Source: an uncultured Eubacteriales bacterium (GTDB lineage: Bacteria > Bacillota > Clostridia > Lachnospirales > Bianqueaceae). From it: a stretch of 32,125 nucleotides of DNA. Below, one piece after another: positions 109-22,636 of this stretch; position 1 is the stretch's first letter, and each line of letters begins with the position of its first letter. Under the pieces are notes generated by a model. That model was given only the letters and a program-made list of their open reading frames with translations, made no database searches and was not told the DNA's origin. The position numbers and the translations under genes were made by a program. Location of the stretch: positions 1-32,125 of the forward strand of contig ONBQ01000044.1 in the NCBI GenBank assembly GCA_900316145.1, read 5' to 3'.

Positions 109-1632
109 TTAACCTATCTTCCCAACTTCTCTTTCCAGCACTTGCTTGGCGTAGCTGGTGAATCCGGGCTGCCCGCGGACGATATGGTAGCTGGTGCGGA
201 CGTTTTCGCCCGTGCCTTCTACTTTGACGACCAGAGAGGATACCTGGCTTCCGGACAGATCCTGGTTGATCTCGTCACAACCAGCTGCCAGGTCATAGAT
301 ATGGGTGACCCAGATGCCGTGGTATCCGGAAAGCTTGCAGACGCTTAAGATCTCACGGGAGAGATACAGGTTCTCCATGGGAGAGGTACCGGTGATGGGC
401 TCGTTGAAAAGCATCAGCGAGCAGGGGGTCATTTCGGTCATTCCTAAGCGCAGCGTTTTTAATTCCTGACCCAGCTTGCCGTGTTTGAGCTGGGTATTTT
501 CTTCGTGGGAGAAAACCGTGACTATCTTTTCGACCGGGCTGATGGTGGCCGTGTCGGCCGGGACCGGCCAGCCCAGCTGGAAGAGCAGCTGCAGGGTGCC
601 TACGGTGCGCAGGAAGGTGGTCTTGCCGCCCTGGTTCATACCGGTCAGGATCAGCAGCTCACCGTTCGGAGCAAAGGTGATGTCATTGCCAACGGCATCG
701 TGGCGGAACAGCAGCAGGACCGGATCGATCATGTTCGTGGCGGAGAAGGCTTTTTCTTCCATAGGCCGGATCTCGGCAAAGATCGGTTCCAGATGATAGC
801 CTTCCATCTGGTGCCAGTAGTTGAGCGCCGCCAGGTAGAAGTTCAGGTCACGGTAAAGATCATCCAGATCCTCCGTCATGTCCCGCATGGTAGAAAGAAA
901 CTGCCGGTAGTGGATGCGCATGGCGTCATGCAGCAGTTCTTCGACAGGAGAGCGCATCTCCTTGACGGGGGACAGGTCCCAGAGTTTATCCGGGTGACGG
1001 CCTTCTTTGGAACCGAAGGGCAGGATCTTCCGGGCGTACTTCTGTTTATGGATAGCTGTGATGGCGCAGCCTTTCAAATGCATTTCCGGATCCAGTGTAA
1101 AGCGCAGGGTGTAGCTGCCGATCATGTCCAGACCGCTGGTGACAGCGTCCCAATCCTGGGCAAAAGAAGTGAAATAATGCTTATCCAGCTTCTCCTGGAC
1201 CACCTCATACAAACGCTTCAGCCCGGCGGAGCTGATCTTTTCTTTTTCGATCTGCTCTTTTAACGCGGCGGCCAGGTCGGACAAGGTGTCATAGGCATGG
1301 CGGAACAGCTTGAATTCCTGCAGGCTGTCGGAGTTATAACCGAAGGAGCGCGGCGCGCGGCATATGGTCTGGATCTCCAGAATACAGGTGCAGACAGCGC
1401 GTACTTTCATGACGATATCCGGGAACTGCTTGAACTCTGTCAGAATATCTTTGCGATAGGACAGATCCTCCGGATCCGTCGTGAGAAATACCTGCCAGTT
1501 GAGCTCCTGGGCATGCGCCAAGTCAAACAGCTCCTCCATGTAATCCTGGATGAGCAGATCCGTCAGCGCCTGGTCCGAAATGAGCATAGGGGCGGAAGGA
1601 CGGTTTTCATTGGCTTTGGTCAGAAATCCCAT
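109..1632 (-). CDS. MutS-family ATPase (domain V type), second gene of a tandem pair
   Basis: This 507-aa protein has a MutS-type C-terminal ATPase domain: Walker A GMNQGGKTT at 331-339, a Walker B-like LMLFNEP at about 406-412, and an H-loop VTH ending at His444. The first 300 residues are helical and resemble the MutS lever/core region. The N-terminal mismatch-recognition domain of MutS1 (Phe-x-Glu motif) is not visible, and there is no Smr nuclease tail as in MutS2. The Walker B Asp is replaced by Asn410, with Glu411 retained. The start has a strong AAGGAGG site and lies 3 nt after the stop of the upstream paralogue, so the two are surely co-transcribed and probably translationally coupled. 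The fold assignment is firm. The role is unknown: DNA-structure sensing by a heterodimer is an inference. Confidence 0.8.
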   Translation of the reverse strand: MGFLTKANENRPSAPMLISDQALTDLLIQDYMEELFDLAHAQELNWQVFLTTDPEDLSYRKDILTEFKQFPDIVMKVRAVCTCILEIQTICRAPRSFGYNSDSLQEFKLFRHAYDTLSDLAAALKEQIEKEKISSAGLKRLYEVVQEKLDKHYFTSFAQDWDAVTSGLDMIGSYTLRFTLDPEMHLKGCAITAIHKQKYARKILPFGSKEGRHPDKLWDLSPVKEMRSPVEELLHDAMRIHYRQFLSTMRDMTEDLDDLYRDLNFYLAALNYWHQMEGYHLEPIFAEIRPMEEKAFSATNMIDPVLLLFRHDAVGNDITFAPNGELLILTGMNQGGKTTFLRTVGTLQLLFQLGWPVPADTATISPVEKIVTVFSHEENTQLKHGKLGQELKTLRLGMTEMTPCSLMLFNEPITGTSPMENLYLSREILSVCKLSGYHGIWVTHIYDLAAGCDEINQDLSGSQVSSLVVKVEGTGENVRTSYHIVRGQPGFTSYAKQVLEREVGKIG

Positions 1633-1635
1633 GCT

Positions 1636-3255
1636 TTACGCCTCCTTTCCGGACTGAGCGTTAGCGCTCTCGTAAATGTTTTCCATGCGGGTACGGCGGC
1701 AATAGGAAGAGGCTTCTGCCCGGAGAGCAGGATCCTCCAGCAGGTCTTCCAGGGTGATCTGGAAGCTTTTGGCCGTTTCCATAGCATAGCTGTTGCCCAG
1801 CGGCTGAGATTCCATCAAGCGATAGCTGTGTACCATGCCCTTTTCCTCACTGAATTCAGAGAGGGTGATCAGGCTTGTGAAACGCTCTTCCTGATCCGCG
1901 GATAAGCGGGTCTTGAGCAGATAGTAGATATCATACAGGTGGGTAACGACCAGATGCGTGATGTGCTTATTCAGGAAGCGCTGCATCAGATCGCTGCAGA
2001 TGGACACGGCTTCGATGGGGTTGGTGCTGGTCATGGGCTCATTGATGAGGACCAGGTCCTGCTCCGTAGCAGACTGCATGATCTGGGACAGGCGCTGGAT
2101 CTCTACACCCATACGGGAGACCGACATGGAAGAATCCTCGCCGGTAGAGAACAAGGTATAGAATTTCTTAAAAGGACGGAACCGGAAGGAGACAGCCGGG
2201 ACCGGGAAGCCGAACTGTGCCAGCACCAGAGACTGTCCGATCGTTTTCAGATAGGAGGTCTTGCCGGAGTGGTTGGCGCCGGTGATCAAGGTAGAGGACC
2301 CGCCGGAAAGCGTGACCTGCTTGCCTTCCAGGTCATTCATGTGCAGGGCCAGATCCGGATACTGCAGTCCCTCCGCGGTCAGTTCTTCCCCGTTAGGATC
2401 TGGAATGGTCAGACCGTAACCGGCTTTCTGGAACAGGTCGCAAAGCGACAGGCCGATCACCAGATATTCCAGAGAATCCGCAAGCTCTATCAGCTCAGGA
2501 GAACGTAGGGGAGCCACGCCCTGAAGCAGCTTATGCGCTTTCGCGATCTCGCTGTGATAATGCTTGCTGTAGTGCTGCAGCAGATATTCTTCAAAGTGCG
2601 TGCCATACTGCGCGCGGGTATAAGGCATTTCCGGGAAGAGGCTTTCCGAGGAAGCGGTCGGCGCGCTTACATCCAGCAGAGCCTGGATGGAGGTTTCGGA
2701 CGTATCGTCTTTGATGATGCCGATGTCGGTGGCGTCACCCGTTTCCCGGGCATTTAATCCGACGTAGATATGACTCGGAAACGGCAGGACCGTCGGCACC
2801 TCGCGGACAACTGACTCGATGGTGGGGAAAGCCGGATCTTTGCGGATCTCCGCGACCAGGTCCTTTAACTGGCCCAGACGGGGAGAATGACCCTCGCCGG
2901 AAGCGCACAGATTCTCCAGAGCCTCGATCAAAGCAAGAAAAGCGTTCAGGACGCGGTAGGAATAGAGAACATCATGCAGATCATCCGCCGTGCGGGAAGC
3001 TTTTTCCTGTTCGTCGATGAAAGAACGCAGTTTATGATAGGCCTCTTCGGCCAGATCTTTGTCCTTCAGATCCTGAAAGAGTTTATAACGGGCGGACAGC
3101 TCATCCGGGTCGTTTTCGAAGGCGTGAAGCGTCCAGTCAGACAGCTCGGATTCAGTCAGCTGCGGACGGGCCAGTATCAGGATCCGGAGCATGTCCAGAT
3201 CATTGAATGGCTGCGCCAAAGCGTTGTCCGGTGCGGAAAAATGGATCAGATTCAT
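1636..3255 (-). CDS. MutS-family ATPase (domain V type), first gene of a tandem pair
   Basis: The C-terminal half is a MutS-type ATPase. Numbered from the chosen start, it has Walker A GANHSGKTS at about 326-334, a Walker B-like LVLINEP with Asn405-Glu406, and an H-loop VTH at His439. It is a diverged paralogue of the next gene and likewise lacks a recognisable mismatch-binding domain. An open frame extends upstream to a GTG at 3345, but I start at ATG 3255 (539 aa). That ATG has AGGAGG six bases upstream, and a minus-strand promoter (-10 at 3319-3324) lies inside the longer frame. Paired, different MutS-like ATPases suggest an asymmetric heterodimer, which is inference. The substrate is unknown. 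Confidence 0.78.
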   Translation of the reverse strand: MNLIHFSAPDNALAQPFNDLDMLRILILARPQLTESELSDWTLHAFENDPDELSARYKLFQDLKDKDLAEEAYHKLRSFIDEQEKASRTADDLHDVLYSYRVLNAFLALIEALENLCASGEGHSPRLGQLKDLVAEIRKDPAFPTIESVVREVPTVLPFPSHIYVGLNARETGDATDIGIIKDDTSETSIQALLDVSAPTASSESLFPEMPYTRAQYGTHFEEYLLQHYSKHYHSEIAKAHKLLQGVAPLRSPELIELADSLEYLVIGLSLCDLFQKAGYGLTIPDPNGEELTAEGLQYPDLALHMNDLEGKQVTLSGGSSTLITGANHSGKTSYLKTIGQSLVLAQFGFPVPAVSFRFRPFKKFYTLFSTGEDSSMSVSRMGVEIQRLSQIMQSATEQDLVLINEPMTSTNPIEAVSICSDLMQRFLNKHITHLVVTHLYDIYYLLKTRLSADQEERFTSLITLSEFSEEKGMVHSYRLMESQPLGNSYAMETAKSFQITLEDLLEDPALRAEASSYCRRTRMENIYESANAQSGKEA

Positions 3256-3318
3256 AGGATCCTCCTGAAAATAAGGTCGCTGTGGGAAACCCTTGGAAAA
3301 GGGCTTTAACAACTCCTC

Positions 3319-3347
3319 ATTATACAACGTTCTTAGCTGAAACACAA
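3319..3347 (-). promoter_or_regulatory. Promoter of the MutS-like pair
   Basis: On the minus strand, TTGTGT (3342-3347) and TATAAT (3319-3324) are separated by 17 bp. The -10 is consensus and the -35 weaker. Transcription would start near 3312, giving a leader of about 57 nt to the ATG at 3255. Confidence 0.6.
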
Positions 3348-3357
3348 GGGAAATCGG

Positions 3358-3385
3358 TTGACATTGAAAGTGGTTGTGGTATAAT
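3358..3385 (+). promoter_or_regulatory. pepT: Promoter of the pepT operon
   Basis: A perfect TTGACA (3358-3363) and a perfect TATAAT (3380-3385) are separated by 16 bp. It sits back-to-back with the promoter of the MutS-like pair. A possible imperfect 5'-leader hairpin (3398-3431, core TCCT/AGGA plus TTTG/CAAA) follows. It has no T-run, so I do not call it an attenuator. Confidence 0.75.
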
Positions 3386-3453: not shown

Positions 3454-4674
3454 ATGAACCCTGTAGAACGTTTTATGAAATATGTGCGGTATAACACGCA
3501 GTCCAAAGAGCGGTCCGACAGCTATCCCAGCACGCCGGAGCAGCTTGTCTTTGGACAGATGCTGGTGGAAGACCTGAAGCAGATCGGCGTTGCGGATGCC
3601 CATCAGGACGCCCATGGCTATGTCATCGGAAGCATTCCTTCCAACGTGGATCAGGAAGTGCCCGCTGTCGGTTTCGTAGCCCATATGGACACCGCGCCGG
3701 ACTTTTCCGGTGAGAACATCCAGCCTCGCCTGATCGAGAACTATGATGGAAAAGATATCGTACTCAACGAAGAGAACCATATCGTGCTGAGCCCGGAGGA
3801 CTATCCCAGCCTGAAAAACAAGGTCGGAAAGAGCCTGATCGTGACGGATGGCATGACCCTGCTCGGCGGCGATGACAAAGCGGGTATCGCGGCCATCTTC
3901 GGCATGGCGGAAAACCTGATCTCTCATCCGGAGATCCGCCATGGCAAGATCTGCATCGCCTTCACGCCGGATGAAGAAGTCGGAACCGGTGTTGAGTACT
4001 TTGACGTACCGGCTTTCGGCGCGGAGTTCGCCTATACGGTCGATGGCGGCGCTGTCGGCGGGATCGAGTATGAGACCTTCAACGCGGCCGCTGCTATGAT
4101 CACGGTGCACGGCGTCAGCAGCCATCCGGGTTCCGCGAAGGGTACCATGAAGAGCGCGGTCGAGATCGGCATGGAGTTCCATCACATGCTGCCGGAGAAT
4201 GAGCGTCCGCAGTATACGGAGGGCTATGAAGGCTTTTACCATCTGACCCACATGACGGGCAGCGTGGAAGACGCCAGACTCTTCTACATCGTCAGGGATC
4301 ATGACCGGGCCAAGTTCGAAGCGAAGAAACAGCTGATGGAGCAGGCAGCGGCCTTTATCAACGCGAAGTACGGAGAAGGGACCCTGGAACTGGTCCTTAA
4401 GGATACTTATTACAACATGCGGGAGCAGATCGAGCCGCATATGGAGATCGTGGACAATGCCTGCGCGGTCATGCGCGAGATGGGCATCACGCCTGAGATC
4501 GAAGCGGTGCGCGGTGGTACGGACGGGTCCCGCCTGTCCTACATGGGCCTGCCTTGCCCCAACGTCTTTACCGGCGGATACAACTGCCATGGACGTTATG
4601 AATATGTATGTGTGGAGGAACTGCTGCAAAGCGCTGAGTTTTTGACGAGACTCGCGGCAGCGTACGCGAAATAA
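3454..4674 (+). CDS. pepT: Peptidase T (tripeptide aminopeptidase)
   Basis: This cytoplasmic dizinc M20B exopeptidase removes N-terminal residues from tripeptides. Its 406 aa match the usual family length. The metal and catalytic residues expected for PepT are in place: His77 in AHMDT with Asp79, Asp140 in LGGDDKAG, Glu174-Glu175 in PDEEVG, Asp197 in TVDGG, and His379 in GGYNCHG. The SSHPGSAKG segment lies in the lid/dimerisation domain. The start has an AAAGGA site about 8 nt upstream and follows a consensus promoter. It is the first gene of a probable operon with a YitT protein (1-nt gap) and a flavoprotein. Peptide breakdown suits an amino-acid-using anaerobe, and an amino acid importer lies nearby. 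Confidence 0.95.
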   Translation: MNPVERFMKYVRYNTQSKERSDSYPSTPEQLVFGQMLVEDLKQIGVADAHQDAHGYVIGSIPSNVDQEVPAVGFVAHMDTAPDFSGENIQPRLIENYDGKDIVLNEENHIVLSPEDYPSLKNKVGKSLIVTDGMTLLGGDDKAGIAAIFGMAENLISHPEIRHGKICIAFTPDEEVGTGVEYFDVPAFGAEFAYTVDGGAVGGIEYETFNAAAAMITVHGVSSHPGSAKGTMKSAVEIGMEFHHMLPENERPQYTEGYEGFYHLTHMTGSVEDARLFYIVRDHDRAKFEAKKQLMEQAAAFINAKYGEGTLELVLKDTYYNMREQIEPHMEIVDNACAVMREMGITPEIEAVRGGTDGSRLSYMGLPCPNVFTGGYNCHGRYEYVCVEELLQSAEFLTRLAAAYAK

Positions 4675-4675
4675 A

Positions 4676-5554
4676 ATGAGAAAATTCAAAGTCAATCGGT
4701 ATGTCAAACGGTACGCCTATATCATCGGCGGCACCGCCATTTACGCGATCGGCGTCAATCTGTTCGTGACGCCCATGGGATATTTTTCCAGCGGTATCGT
4801 GGGTACGTCCCAGCTGATCCGTTCCGCGCTGCAGCAGTTCGGTACGATCCGGCTGCCGGCCGGAATCGATATCGCCGGTGTCCTGAACATGTGCTTCAAC
4901 ATTCCTTTGTTCATCCTGGCGTATACCAGCATTTCCAAAAAGGTGCTTTTCCGAACGCTGGTGAGCCTGGCGGTGCAGACCCTGATCTTTTCCTTCTGCC
5001 CGATCCCGAAGGAACCGATCATCGAAGATCCTTTGACCGCCTGCCTGATCGGCGGCATCGTGACCGGCGCGGGCATCGGTCTGGTCCTGCAGGCCAGCGG
5101 CACGGGCGGAGGCCTGGATATCCTGGGCTTCTACCTGACGATGAAGGTCCGTGACTTTTCGATCGGAAAGGTCTCGATCATTTACAATGCCATCCTGTAC
5201 GCCATCTGCGCGGTGCTCTTCAGCGTGGAGACGGCTATTTATTCCGTCATCTACATGGTCATCTTCTCTTTGATCATTGACCGCACTCATCTGCAGAACA
5301 TCAAGACACAGGTCACGGTACTGGCTACGACGGAAGAGCTGCCCAAGCGCATTACTCATGAGATCGGCCGCGGGGTTACCCTGTGGGGAGGAGAAAGCGC
5401 GTATACGGAGAACCACAAGGTCATCTTTACGACTGTTGTTTCAAAATATGAGGTGGCGGAGATCCGCCGCATCATCGATGAGATGGACCCGACCGCTTTC
5501 ATGATCATCAATGAGGGCGTGCATATCAAGGGACGGTTCAACAGTCATCTCTGA
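4676..5554 (+). CDS. YitT-family membrane protein, copy 1 of 3
   Basis: This 292-aa integral membrane protein has about five or six hydrophobic segments in residues 15-200 and a soluble C-terminal DUF2179-like domain of about 80 residues. It begins one base after the pepT stop with no clear Shine-Dalgarno site, so translation is probably coupled to pepT. The family glycine motif reads GTGGGLD (about 142-148), whereas the other two copies in this window read ATTGGTD. The C-terminal IIDEMDPTAFMII motif is typical of the family. No biochemical role is established for YitT proteins, and a link to peptide or amino acid handling here rests only on gene order. Confidence 0.85.
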   Translation: MRKFKVNRYVKRYAYIIGGTAIYAIGVNLFVTPMGYFSSGIVGTSQLIRSALQQFGTIRLPAGIDIAGVLNMCFNIPLFILAYTSISKKVLFRTLVSLAVQTLIFSFCPIPKEPIIEDPLTACLIGGIVTGAGIGLVLQASGTGGGLDILGFYLTMKVRDFSIGKVSIIYNAILYAICAVLFSVETAIYSVIYMVIFSLIIDRTHLQNIKTQVTVLATTEELPKRITHEIGRGVTLWGGESAYTENHKVIFTTVVSKYEVAEIRRIIDEMDPTAFMIINEGVHIKGRFNSHL

Positions 5555-13883: not shown

Positions 13884-14744
13884 ATGCAATTTACCTTGAA
13901 GAAAGACGGAAAGCGTCTTCTGGTCGTTATTCTGGCTTCCTTTCTGATGGCGCTCAATATCAAAAGCTTTGTCCGTACCGGTGATCTGTTCCCGGGCGGC
14001 GCGACCGGTCTGACACTTCTGGTGCAGCGTCTGGTCAAGCTGTATCTGCATCAGGATATCTCCTATACCTTGATCAATATCCTTCTGAACGCGTTTCCGG
14101 TGTACATCGGGTTCCGCTTCATCGGAAAAAAGTTTACCCTGTTCTCCTGCCTGATGATCTTTTTGACAGGCCTTTGGACGGACCTTCTCCCGGGCCTTGT
14201 CATCACCCAGGATATCCTTTTGATCAGTATCTTTGGCGGTATCATCAACGGATTCTGCATCAGCCTGTGCCTTTCCGTGGACGCAACCACCGGAGGTACG
14301 GATTTCATCGGCATCTTTCTGTCCGAGCGAAAGGGCATGGACTCTTTCCCGATGGTGCTGGGCATCAATGTTGTCATTTTAGTGGCGGCCGGCTTCTTCT
14401 TTGGCTGGGACAGAGCGCTTTATTCCATCATCTTCCAGTATACATCCACTACGATCTTGCGGGCGATGTACCGGCGCTACCAGCAGGGTACGGTCCTGGT
14501 CGTAACGGAGAAAGCGCAGGAGATCTGCGACGCGATCTATCGTGAATATCATCACGGCGCCACGATCCTGACAGGAGAAGGCTCTCACATCCATAAGGAC
14601 CGAAAGATCGTATATTCTGTCGTTTCCCGGGCGGAAACGACCGGTGTCGTGCAGGTCGTCCGCTCCATTGATCCGGATGCCTTTATCAATATCATGGATA
14701 CAAAACAAGTGGCGGGCCGTTTCTATTTCCGTCCGGAGGATTAA
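13884..14744 (+). CDS. YitT-family membrane protein, copy 2 of 3
   Basis: This 286-aa protein has the YitT layout: hydrophobic spans in about residues 10-190, with PGGATGLTLLVQRL near residue 38 and ATTGGTDFIGIFLSERKG near 133, then a C-terminal DUF2179-like domain ending SIDPDAFINIMDTKQVAGRF. It begins 6 nt after the sirtuin stop, preceded by GAAGAG, and is co-transcribed with it. The function is unknown. It is clearly diverged from copies 1 and 3, so this is not a recent duplication. Confidence 0.88.
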   Translation: MQFTLKKDGKRLLVVILASFLMALNIKSFVRTGDLFPGGATGLTLLVQRLVKLYLHQDISYTLINILLNAFPVYIGFRFIGKKFTLFSCLMIFLTGLWTDLLPGLVITQDILLISIFGGIINGFCISLCLSVDATTGGTDFIGIFLSERKGMDSFPMVLGINVVILVAAGFFFGWDRALYSIIFQYTSTTILRAMYRRYQQGTVLVVTEKAQEICDAIYREYHHGATILTGEGSHIHKDRKIVYSVVSRAETTGVVQVVRSIDPDAFINIMDTKQVAGRFYFRPED

Positions 14745-19036: not shown

Positions 19037-20827
19037 ATGAAAAACATTACCAACGATCTGTACTATGTCGGCGTTAATGATCATCAGATCGATCTGTTCG
19101 AAGGTCAGTACGTAGTGCCGAACGGCATGGCGTACAATTCTTACGTCATCAAAGATGAGAAGATCGCGATTTTCGATACAGTAGATGAGCATTTCGCGCA
19201 CGAGTGGCTGGACAATGTCGGTGAAGTCCTGGGCGATCGCAAGCCGGACTATCTGATCGTACAGCATATGGAACCGGACCATGCCGGCAACATCAAGACG
19301 TTCCTGAAGAACTATCCGGATACCACCGTAGTCGGCAACCAGAAGACGTTTGCCATGATCAGCCAGTTCTTTGGTGAAGCCTATGAGAATCGCCGCCTGG
19401 TCGTTAAAAACGGAGAAACCTTAAACCTGGGCCGTCATACGCTTACCTTTGTCTTCGCGCCTATGGTACACTGGCCGGAAGTCATGGTCACCTATGACAG
19501 TTATGACAAAGTCCTGTTCTCCGCCGATGCTTTCGGTAAATTCGGCGCGCTGGATGTGGAAGAGGATTGGGCCTGTGAAGCCCGCCGTTACTATTTCGGC
19601 ATCGTCGGCAAGTATGGCCAGCAGGCTCAGAATCTGCTGAAGGCCGCTGCCGGGCTGGATATCCAGATCATCTGCGCGACGCACGGACCGGTGCTGAAAG
19701 AGAACCTTGGCTATTACCTCGGACTTTATCAGAAGTGGACCACCTATGAACCGGAAGATGACGGTATCGTAATTGCCTACACCTCTGTTTACGGACACAC
19801 CAAGAAAGCGGTGGAACTGCTCGAGCGTATGTTGAAAGAGAAGGGCTGCCCAAAAGTGTCTGTCTTTGATCTGGCCCGGGATGACATGGCCGAAGCGGTC
19901 GAGGACGCTTTCCGTTATTCCAAGCTGGTCCTGGCTACCACCACATACAATGCGGAGATCTTCCCCTTCATGCGGGAATTCATCAACCACCTGACGGAGC
20001 GCAATTATCAGAAGCGCACCATCGGTCTGATCGAAAATGGCTCCTGGGCGCCTATGGCCTGCAAGGTCATGTATGGGATGCTTGAGAAGAGCAAGAACAT
20101 CGACTATGCCGGTACCGTGACCATCAAGTCCGCGCTGAATGACGCCAGCAAAAAAGAATTGGAAGACCTGGCCAATGAACTGTGCAAGGATTATATCGCC
20201 CAGACACCGGAACTGGCCAACAAGAACGATATGAGCGCCCTCTTTAAGATCGGGTACGGTCTGTATGTCGTCACGACCAATGATGGCAAGAAAGACAACG
20301 GCTGCATCGTCAACACGGTCACCCAGCTCACCTCTGAGCCGAACCGGGTCGCGGTCGCGATCAACAAAGCCAACTATACGCATTATATCGTCAAGCAGAC
20401 CGGTGAGCTGAATGTCAACTGCCTGTCGGTCGACGCGCCATTCTCTGTATTTGAGAATTTCGGTTTCCAGAGCGGCCGGACTGCGGATAAATTAAAGGGC
20501 TGGGAGACCGGTCGTTCAGACAATGGTCTGGTATTCCTGAAGCACTATATCAATGCGTTCATGTCCCTGAAGGTAGAAAACTACATCGATATGGATACGC
20601 ACGGACTGTTCATCTGCACGGTCACGGAAGCCCGCGTTCTGTCCGATAAGGACACCATGACGTACACCTACTATCAGTCCAACGTTAAACCGAAACCCCA
20701 GACGGAAGGCAAGAAGGGCTGGGTCTGCAAGATCTGCGGATACATCTATGAGGGAGAGACCCTTCCGGATGATTTCATCTGCCCACTTTGCAAACACGGC
20801 GCGGCTGACTTTGAACCGATCCAGTAA
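19037..20827 (+). CDS. Flavodiiron protein with flavin-reductase-like and rubredoxin domains (FprA fusion)
   Basis: This 596-aa cytoplasmic enzyme is expected to reduce O2 to water and/or NO to N2O. The N-terminal metallo-beta-lactamase-like diiron domain keeps all ligands: His77, Glu79, Asp81, His82 (HMEPDH), His145, Asp164 and His216. A flavodoxin domain binding FMN follows (TSVYGHTKKAVELL, about 250-395), then a flavin-reductase-like domain (LYVVTTNDGKKDNGCIVNT onward, about 405-550), then a C-terminal rubredoxin (about 559-596). The rubredoxin is short-spaced: C564-x2-C567, only 14 residues, then C582-x2-C585. The fusion may let NAD(P)H-derived electrons pass within one chain. It has its own promoter and terminator, as expected for a stress-defence gene in an anaerobe. 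Confidence 0.94.
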   Translation: MKNITNDLYYVGVNDHQIDLFEGQYVVPNGMAYNSYVIKDEKIAIFDTVDEHFAHEWLDNVGEVLGDRKPDYLIVQHMEPDHAGNIKTFLKNYPDTTVVGNQKTFAMISQFFGEAYENRRLVVKNGETLNLGRHTLTFVFAPMVHWPEVMVTYDSYDKVLFSADAFGKFGALDVEEDWACEARRYYFGIVGKYGQQAQNLLKAAAGLDIQIICATHGPVLKENLGYYLGLYQKWTTYEPEDDGIVIAYTSVYGHTKKAVELLERMLKEKGCPKVSVFDLARDDMAEAVEDAFRYSKLVLATTTYNAEIFPFMREFINHLTERNYQKRTIGLIENGSWAPMACKVMYGMLEKSKNIDYAGTVTIKSALNDASKKELEDLANELCKDYIAQTPELANKNDMSALFKIGYGLYVVTTNDGKKDNGCIVNTVTQLTSEPNRVAVAINKANYTHYIVKQTGELNVNCLSVDAPFSVFENFGFQSGRTADKLKGWETGRSDNGLVFLKHYINAFMSLKVENYIDMDTHGLFICTVTEARVLSDKDTMTYTYYQSNVKPKPQTEGKKGWVCKICGYIYEGETLPDDFICPLCKHGAADFEPIQ

Positions 20828-21775: not shown

Positions 21776-22636
21776 ATGAAAAAGATCCGATGGAAGGCAG
21801 TTTTTAAAATATTGCTGGGTTCCTGCGTGCTTTCGCTGGGACTGGCCGTATTCCTGGCTCCGTCCAATATCGTTACGGGAGGCGTGACCGGTATCGGGAT
21901 CATTATTCGAGACATTACGAAACGAGCGTTCGGAGTCGGAATATCCTTGTCCATCACCAACCTGGTCATCAATATCCCGATCCTGATCGCGGCCTGGATC
22001 GTGAAAGGGCGTCGGTATATCGCCCGTACCGCGTTGGCCACCTTATCTTTGTCCGGTTTTCTGTATCTGTTCGAAAACCTGACCTTTACCGGCGATATTC
22101 TGCTGGCGGCGATCTATGGCGGCGTGTTAAGCGGGATCGGTCTTGGACTGGTTTTTACCTCCCGGGCTACGACCGGAGGTACGGATATGATCGCTGCGAT
22201 CATCCAGCATTACGTACCGCATTTTTCGGTTTCCAACTTCCTGCTGATCATTGATGGCGTTATCGTTCTGGGCGGTGTCCTGGTCTTCGGTATCCATACT
22301 ACTTTATATGCTTTGATCGCCGTCTATGTAACGACAGCGGTATCGGACCGTGTCGTGGATGGTTTCCACTTCAGTAAAGCGATCTATATCATCTCTGATC
22401 AGGGAGAACAGATCGCGCAGGAGATCCTCAGCAAGATCGACCGGGGCGTGACCGGGCTTCACGGGCGCGGCATGTACACCTCAAAGGAAAAAATGGTATT
22501 ATTATGCACCGCGTCCAGCAAAGAATCCATCCGTATCCGCCGGATCGCGCATGAGATCGATCCCAACGCGTTTATGATCATCGTGGATTCCCGGGAAGTT
22601 TTCGGCGAAGGATTTATCGAAGCGGACAACGAATAA
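21776..22636 (+). CDS. YitT-family membrane protein, copy 3 of 3
   Basis: This 286-aa protein has the same plan as the other two copies: membrane region to about residue 190 with APSNIVTGGVTGIGIII near residue 25 and ATTGGTDMIAAIIQ near 132, then a cytoplasmic DUF2179-like domain with RGVTGLHGRGMYTSKEK and IDPNAFMIIVDSREVFGEGF. It differs from copies 1 and 2 throughout. This copy stands alone, with its own promoter and a 236-bp gap after it. The function is unknown. I see no strong terminator immediately after the stop. Confidence 0.88.
   Translation: MKKIRWKAVFKILLGSCVLSLGLAVFLAPSNIVTGGVTGIGIIIRDITKRAFGVGISLSITNLVINIPILIAAWIVKGRRYIARTALATLSLSGFLYLFENLTFTGDILLAAIYGGVLSGIGLGLVFTSRATTGGTDMIAAIIQHYVPHFSVSNFLLIIDGVIVLGGVLVFGIHTTLYALIAVYVTTAVSDRVVDGFHFSKAIYIISDQGEQIAQEILSKIDRGVTGLHGRGMYTSKEKMVLLCTASSKESIRIRRIAHEIDPNAFMIIVDSREVFGEGFIEADNE

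Follow-up and report, generated by a model that had tools for sequence, protein, structure and literature searches.

MSH4-MSH5 (MutS-gamma) of eukaryotes is a heterodimeric MutS without the mismatch-reading domain I, which keeps the connector domain II and the Asp-Glu (D-E) pair of the Walker B motif. Bacterial MutS proteins, by the account in PMC12292046, are typically homodimeric, and the subfamilies without domains I and II are described there as largely uncharacterized. Each ATP site of a MutS dimer is composed of the Walker A and B motifs of one subunit and the signature motif of the other (PMC6254361). Genes that follow the crcB motif include, in the list of Weinberg et al. (2010), 'DNA repair (mutS)' (PMC2864571), an entry repeated as DNA repair proteins by a 2020 review (PMC7266159). 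In the gene set reported for it, the six-gene fluoride operon of Enterobacter cloacae that was tested by knockout has no mutS (PMC5533749), and a 2024 review of fluoride resistance mentions neither 'DNA repair' nor 'mismatch' (PMC11139923); among the passages returned by a full-text literature search on fluoride and MutS, no paper explaining the link was found. Here we analyze two adjacent genes, A and B, at the start of a 32,125-nucleotide (nt) stretch of DNA (the window; contig ONBQ01000044.1, assembly GCA_900316145.1) from an uncultured Eubacteriales bacterium of the family Bianqueaceae. Their products belong to a separate clade of MutS-type ATPases with Asn in place of the Walker B Asp, and we tentatively favor a reading in which they are the subunits of a heterodimeric clamp ATPase with a magnesium-sparing ATP switch that would act on DNA.

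A reading of the sequence alone (the sequence-only reading) had described A and B as diverged MutS domain-V proteins with Asn-Glu in Walker B, an intact Walker A and H-loop, and neither mismatch-binding nor Smr domains, and this description holds. Both proteins have Walker A, the catalytic Glu, the Asn-Glu-Pro motif and the Thr-His of the H-loop, with Asn for the Walker B Asp, and they share 31% identity over 199 amino acids (aa) of the ATPase region. MutS_V (PF00488) is the sole Pfam family above its cut-off in A and B (57.9 and 67.9 bits, against 30.2), and Pfam and NCBIfam profile scans found in neither protein domains I or II (mismatch-binding and connector), Smr or KOW. The two MutS1 equivalogs of NCBIfam are not reached (61.7 and 55.1 of 480 bits; 53.8 and 49.7 of 641.7 bits), and nor is that of MutS2 (61.8 and 66 bits, cut-off 400). 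Five MutS_V genes are present in the source genome, typed by motif and tree as MutS1 (an open frame of 888 aa), MutS2 (817 aa), a third type with D-E (531 aa), A and B.

Relatives of A and B were gathered from the order (34 of 196 genomes, including those of the window's own family), from the class (38 of 391 genomes, in a search that scored three candidates per genome and may miss second copies), and from the phylum, where strong matches only were taken; the broad phylum alignment also picks up MutS proteins of other kinds (379 of 398 genomes at 1e-30) and gives no prevalence. A, B and these relatives fall together on a long branch of an ATPase-domain tree, with a support of 100 in the Shimodaira-Hasegawa-like approximate likelihood ratio test (SH-aLRT); MutS1, MutS2, KamC and the third type lie outside this group. 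The value is 100 again when the fluoride-type pairs discussed below are added, and also when the motif columns (Walker A, signature, Walker B) are masked. We refer to this clade, delimited here against the four groups above, as NE-MutS, a working name independent of the MutS3-MutS8 numbering (Ogata 2011; Sachadyn 2010). A cut copy (L224) and near-identical rows (ratio 0.93 in the first tree, 0.72 in later ones) are left out of the trees, and short or split copies (L196, L221, L254, L278, L279, G009) are kept as they stand.

The Walker B Asn is present in 105 of 107 rows of the clade (15/15 for A, 16/16 for B, 74/76 for others) and at all 52 sites of 26 fluoride-type pairs (L254-L275 and L278-L281); Asp is kept in MutS1 (4/4), MutS2 (10/10), KamC (6/6) and the third type (5/5). 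The change is thus a trait of the subfamily, as had been suggested, and A and B fall within none of the characterized groups compared. The four members seen with Asp (L157, L197, L276, L277) form one nested group (support 99) that a single change explains on the masked tree, so that Asn was the earlier state within the clade, reverted once. The trans signature is altered as well: Gly-Lys in 15/15 A rows, Ser-Arg in 16/16 B rows, and among the other 76 rows Gly at the first position in 74 and Lys or Arg at the second in 73. At the Met/Thr position of Walker A there is Gln in A, His in B, and mostly Gln or Arg in the rest of the clade. Both halves of the ATP site are therefore changed in NE-MutS, the Mg2+ side by Asp to Asn and the trans side, in most members, by Ser-Thr to Gly-Lys/Arg. 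The D693N substitution in Escherichia coli MutS was reportedly found by Lebbink and colleagues in 2010 to weaken the use of Mg2+. We take two columns of the clade alignment to be those of residues 693 and 697; Asn is the NE-MutS residue at the first, and Arg stands at the second in 0 of 107 rows. By their entry titles, the D693N (3k0s) and R697A (1ng9) mutants of E. coli MutS have been crystallized, and these laboratory changes fall where NE-MutS differs naturally; unlike in the mutants, the altered residues are here the natural state and are accompanied by the changed trans signature.

KamC (NF052383), the reactivase ATPase of lysine 5,6-aminomutase, is like A and B a MutS_V ATPase of about 500-600 aa, and its model is the best NCBIfam match for both (64.9 and 100.3 bits), which would suit a pair that remodels a cofactor-dependent enzyme. 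These scores are, however, far under the cut-off of 300 and cover the ATPase core only, KamC itself has D-E and the signature Ser (6/6), and it groups with MutS2 rather than with NE-MutS (SH-aLRT 92-93). KamC directly precedes a PF09043 aminomutase gene in all six loci read (L158-L163), and PF09043 is found in 0 of 19 genomes of the window's family against 6 of 6 controls. On context, motifs, tree and the absence of PF09043 we reject a KamC or aminomutase reactivase identity, and a KamC-like role of any kind is very improbable.

Conservation was examined in 19 genomes of the window's family, from five genera and 66-98% complete. Gene A is present in 18 and gene B in all 19, and the two are adjacent in 18 of 18 genomes in which the layout can be read; one contig (G017) stops just behind B and another (G004) breaks inside A. 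At 14 loci the genes overlap by 4-32 nt and at two they lie 3 nt apart, as derived by hand from starts and stops; the gap in the window is 3 nt (1633-1635). The expectation of the sequence-only reading that A and B are produced together as partners is in keeping with this layout and with a fused protein found elsewhere, and neither gene is found alone as often as with its partner in this family. The flanking genes differ between genera, from which we conclude that A and B travel as a unit of their own. Compared with two congeners, A has a ratio of nonsynonymous to synonymous substitution rates (dN/dS) of 0.12-0.14 and B one of 0.21-0.24; both genes are under purifying selection, which argues against chance. 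That the Asn marks decayed ATPases without function might be suspected from E. coli MutS, in which residues 693-696 stabilize the waters around Mg2+ and substitutions there abolish ATPase activity and inactivate repair (PMC3848065). The low dN/dS, the invariance of the Asn within the family and its presence across the clade, the retained catalytic Glu, Walker A and H-loop, and the position of relatives behind riboswitches make such decay barely credible.

AlphaFold2 single-chain models of A (predicted local distance difference test, pLDDT, 77.5; predicted template modeling score, pTM, 0.77) and B (pLDDT 80.1, pTM 0.76) resemble MSH2 (8omo_A), with Z 31.5 over 386 aligned residues at 3.4 Å for A, against residues 297-854 of that chain, and Z 30.7 over 374 at 3.8 Å for B. 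Both proteins are thus predicted to consist of MutS domains III-IV-V over nearly their whole length. The MutS2 core (7vuk, 7qv3) likewise has domains III-IV-V without mismatch-binding domains, and its chain in a ribosome complex (7qv3_w) matches A with Z 27.1 and B with Z 27.9, as might be expected if the pair bound collided ribosomes and split them with ATP. The parts of MutS2 that recruit it to ribosomes are SMR and KOW (PMC10897456), and in contrast to MutS2 these were not found in A or B, which have N-E for D-E, lie outside the MutS2 clade and occur in a genome with a separate MutS2-clade protein. A translation role of this kind seems improbable. We note that G001 and G002 (L237, L238), from one genus of the window's family, each encode, beside the longer MutS2, another MutS2-like protein that is shorter (658 and 644 aa).

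Outside the window's family we read 54 stretches from 47 genomes. The genes of the clade there fall into 55 groups, of which 21 are adjacent pairs, one is a fused protein, 24 are genes alone (two of them, L196 and L220, short) and nine lie at contig ends. By genome, a pair or fusion is present in 20 of 47, single genes only in 21, and contig-end loci only in six; the pairing of A and B proposed in the sequence-only reading is thus constant in their own family, but it is not the rule in the wider clade. The fused protein (L204:6038-9388, G631) is 1116 aa long with two complete ATPase sites, both N-E, and its halves group, in the same order, with the two genes of a separate pair (L206) in the same genome, at 95 for the downstream and 100 for the upstream gene; this genome also has a further gene near a contig end (L205). 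For a single ancient duplication as the possible source of all pairs the results are divided: when B was constrained with 10 upstream genes of other pairs the likelihood was slightly better (approximately unbiased test, p-AU 0.607), but a second tree puts the L209/L210 genes elsewhere. The 24 single genes might suggest two separate homodimers that are merely encoded together; this is unlikely in view of the constant adjacency and frequent overlap in the window's family, the fusion in the same order, and the difference between the A and B signatures. Gene layout and fusion would lend indirect support to an A-B heterodimer.

The neighbors of other NE-MutS loci, by reading, are mostly housekeeping genes and offer no lead; a few helix-turn-helix (HTH) regulators are among them, and at two loci a Liv-type transporter operon. 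An HTH regulator, of XRE or MerR type by reading, adjoins some pairs (L151:8097-8957, L153:11531, L230:6815, L206:4202-4909, L152:8070-8612) and could possibly provide control without a riboswitch. Scans of viral contigs gave no relative of A and two 33-codon matches for B, and in a phage collection A had 22 weak records, all with coverage under 80%.

One branch of the clade is associated with fluoride. A tblastn search of plasmids with A hit Klebsiella, Salmonella, Rhodococcus and Alicyclobacillus, at about 27% identity and with 85-98% of the query covered; each has two adjacent genes. All eight plasmid stretches that we read contain a fluoride riboswitch (Rfam RF01734). The Klebsiella, Salmonella, Rhodococcus, Alicyclobacillus and Burkholderia stretches encode varying sets of crcB, eno, pyrophosphatase, DUF190 or CLC genes; that of Rubrobacter has only an antiporter, a universal stress protein and a P-type ATPase, that of Mycobacterium a universal stress protein and a phosphatase, and the Caballeronia stretch is unannotated. 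The class set adds five pairs and the phylum set 18, for a total of 31 fluoride-type pairs, some with short or split frames; a 354-aa fragment (L220) is outside this count, and L219 is outside the riboswitch count, its genome (G593) not having been in the riboswitch search. Of the 31 pairs, 27 have a same-strand riboswitch match upstream, directly (within 450 nt) in 21 and at 1.3-2.2 kb in six (distances for the class set and L279-L281 being derived by hand); in five of the 27 the nearest match is below the Rfam gathering score of 34 (L222, 33.2; L259, 33.5; L274, 24.7; L262, 31.5; L264, 28.4). The four pairs without a riboswitch there are L267, L268, L255 (one elsewhere in the island) and L278 (only on a divergent gene). 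Near the other clade loci outside the window's family a riboswitch was found in 0 of 47 in the genomes searched, and these loci include three pairs (L152, L156, L197) that branch close to the fluoride type.

The upstream genes of the fluoride-type pairs form one group in the tree (98) and the downstream genes another (71), with A and B outside both. These pairs share with A and B the clade, the N-E Walker B and the Gly-Lys/Arg signature (Ser-Arg in B instead of Gly-Lys), as well as size and the adjacent two-gene layout. This branch very likely represents the fluoride-riboswitch mutS of Weinberg et al. The window's pair differs in having no riboswitch, in belonging to a family without CrcB, and in its own A and B branches.

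Fluoride islands with an NE-MutS pair occur on large, often conjugative plasmids (L254, L257, L279; those of Klebsiella, Salmonella and Burkholderia were read), one of them from a strain with NDM5 and OXA48 in its name. At E 1e-30 or better the fluoride-type upstream gene is found on 46 plasmid records, of which 21 are typed as conjugative, and a fluoride-type gene alone also matches Citrobacter and Enterobacter plasmids; a close copy of the pair is present in one of 5426 E. coli genomes. Within the Burkholderia island a dynamin-family gene (L279:10126-12231) is convergent to the MutS pair, and on the side away from the pair come a hypothetical and a pyrophosphatase gene.

In the heterodimer that we favor, each ATP would sit between the Walker A and B motifs of one subunit and the signature of its partner. 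With Asn for the Mg2+-holding Asp and a Lys or Arg supplied by the partner, the state would be set by the binding of ATP and not by its fast Mg2+-dependent hydrolysis, giving a slow clamp that needs little magnesium, and since only B keeps the signature Ser the two ATP sites of the window's pair should differ. The clamp may enclose branched or looped DNA, in the manner of MutS2 and MSH4-MSH5, and not act on ribosomes; this target is suggested by the fold together with the missing SMR/KOW parts. For the fluoride branch, fluoride is a ligand of Mg2+ and perturbs divalent ions (PMC11139923), and MutS accepts ADP-BeF3 (title of entry 1nne); ADP-metal-fluoride complexes could trap ordinary MutS there, and a changed Mg2+ site would therefore suit a fluoride-induced one. 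On this reading the window's pair would represent a sister use of the same chemistry without riboswitch control. It is possible, although doubtful, that NE-MutS is in general a magnesium-sparing and fluoride-tolerant switch: the partner Lys/Arg would carry some of the charge at the ATP phosphates, and the clamp would go on cycling at the low free Mg2+ caused by fluoride, where ordinary MutS is trapped by ADP-metal-fluoride complexes.

Several results weigh against such a clamp, or against its connection with fluoride. No neighboring gene conserved across the genera of the window's family was found and the neighbors provide no link to DNA repair, and among 17 loci no convincing LexA-like site was seen upstream of B, the best having one mismatch (L081) and the others two or three to a consensus that is unverified for this lineage. 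The suggestion of the sequence-only reading that the pair serves nucleic-acid surveillance thus goes further than the data, as neither gene context nor regulation proves a DNA or RNA target. The stretches at the clamp position (by our own division, 63 residues in A and 59 in B) have low model confidence, and A, B and the clamp stretch of B are acidic, that of A being near neutral; MutS1 proteins are equally acidic, and charge is therefore uninformative on nucleic-acid binding. A heterodimer is not essential to the wider clade, given the genomes with single genes only. The window has no fluoride riboswitch, and no fluoride-type genes among its proteins scanned; in its family a riboswitch over the cut-off was found in 0 of 12 genomes searched, with stricter filters under which weak riboswitches may be missed (matches of 26 bits in G011 and 21 bits in G002 both lie away from the pair), and CrcB is absent from all 19 genomes. 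It is by kinship that the pair is linked to fluoride. That it serves the fluoride response itself, under another regulator or constitutively, is accordingly improbable, the more so with A and B outside the fluoride-type branches, even though it shares clade, Walker B change and layout with the riboswitch pairs. Lack of CrcB alone does not exclude such a role, since CrcB is also missing from six of 22 fluoride-type genomes (CLC-F exporters were not searched), and riboswitch control is reported for only some 15% of Fluc and 30% of CLC-F exporters (PMC11139923).

The mutS of the crcB-motif list is thus very likely this clade of its own, often found as pairs and naturally altered at the magnesium-holding residue on which fluoride chemistry bears, and the old 'DNA repair (mutS)' annotation becomes open to a simple biochemical test. 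A fluoride-tolerant switch, if true, would explain the presence of mutS genes in the fluoride regulon, and the window's pair would be a constitutive heterodimeric member of this class. NE-MutS also provides candidates for heterodimeric MutS in bacteria, whose MutS proteins are typically homodimers.

The features of the pair are collected in Table 1. The contig starts at base 1 of the window, and sequence beyond gene A is outside view in the source genome. The longest open reading frame of gene B is 1636..3345 on the minus strand with a GTG start, and the conserved start is the ATG at 3255, preceded by AGGAGG at 3266-3261. The ribosome-binding sites of both genes are strong.

Table 1. Positions of the A and B genes, their motifs and their expression signals in the window.
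Feature	Position	Strand	Remarks
Gene B (upstream of pair)	1636..3255	minus	MutS-fold ATPase, 539 aa, NE Walker B
Gene A (downstream of pair)	109..1632	minus	MutS-fold ATPase, 507 aa, NE Walker B
Candidate promoter of pair, TTGTGT (3 of 6) - 17 nt - TATAAT	3319..3347	minus	by eye; weak first hexamer; absent from promoter scan output
B ribosome-binding site AGGAGG	3261..3266	minus	
A ribosome-binding site AAGGAGG	1641..1647	minus	within 3' end of gene B
B Walker A TGANHSGKTS, residues 325-334	2254..2283	minus	
B signature motif SRMGVE, residues 380-385	2101..2118	minus	Ser kept, Thr to Arg
B Walker B Asn405-Glu406-Pro407	2035..2043	minus	
A Walker A TGMNQGGKTT, residues 330-339	616..645	minus	
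A signature motif GKLGQE, residues 385-390	463..480	minus	Ser-Thr to Gly-Lys
A Walker B Asn410-Glu411-Pro412	397..405	minus	

A perfect sigma-70 consensus (TTGACA-16 nt-TATAAT) at 3358-3385 on the plus strand, about 10 nt from the candidate promoter of the pair, lies in front of a divergent peptidase gene at 3454. Long open frames run antisense to A and B on the plus strand (481-1263 and 1939-2508), likely as an effect of codon usage. Elsewhere in the window three YitT-family membrane proteins with DUF2179 are encoded within 18 kb (4676-5554, 13884-14744 and 21776-22636), and a single protein at 19037-20827 combines metallo-beta-lactamase (ODP), flavodoxin, flavin-reductase and rubredoxin-like domains.

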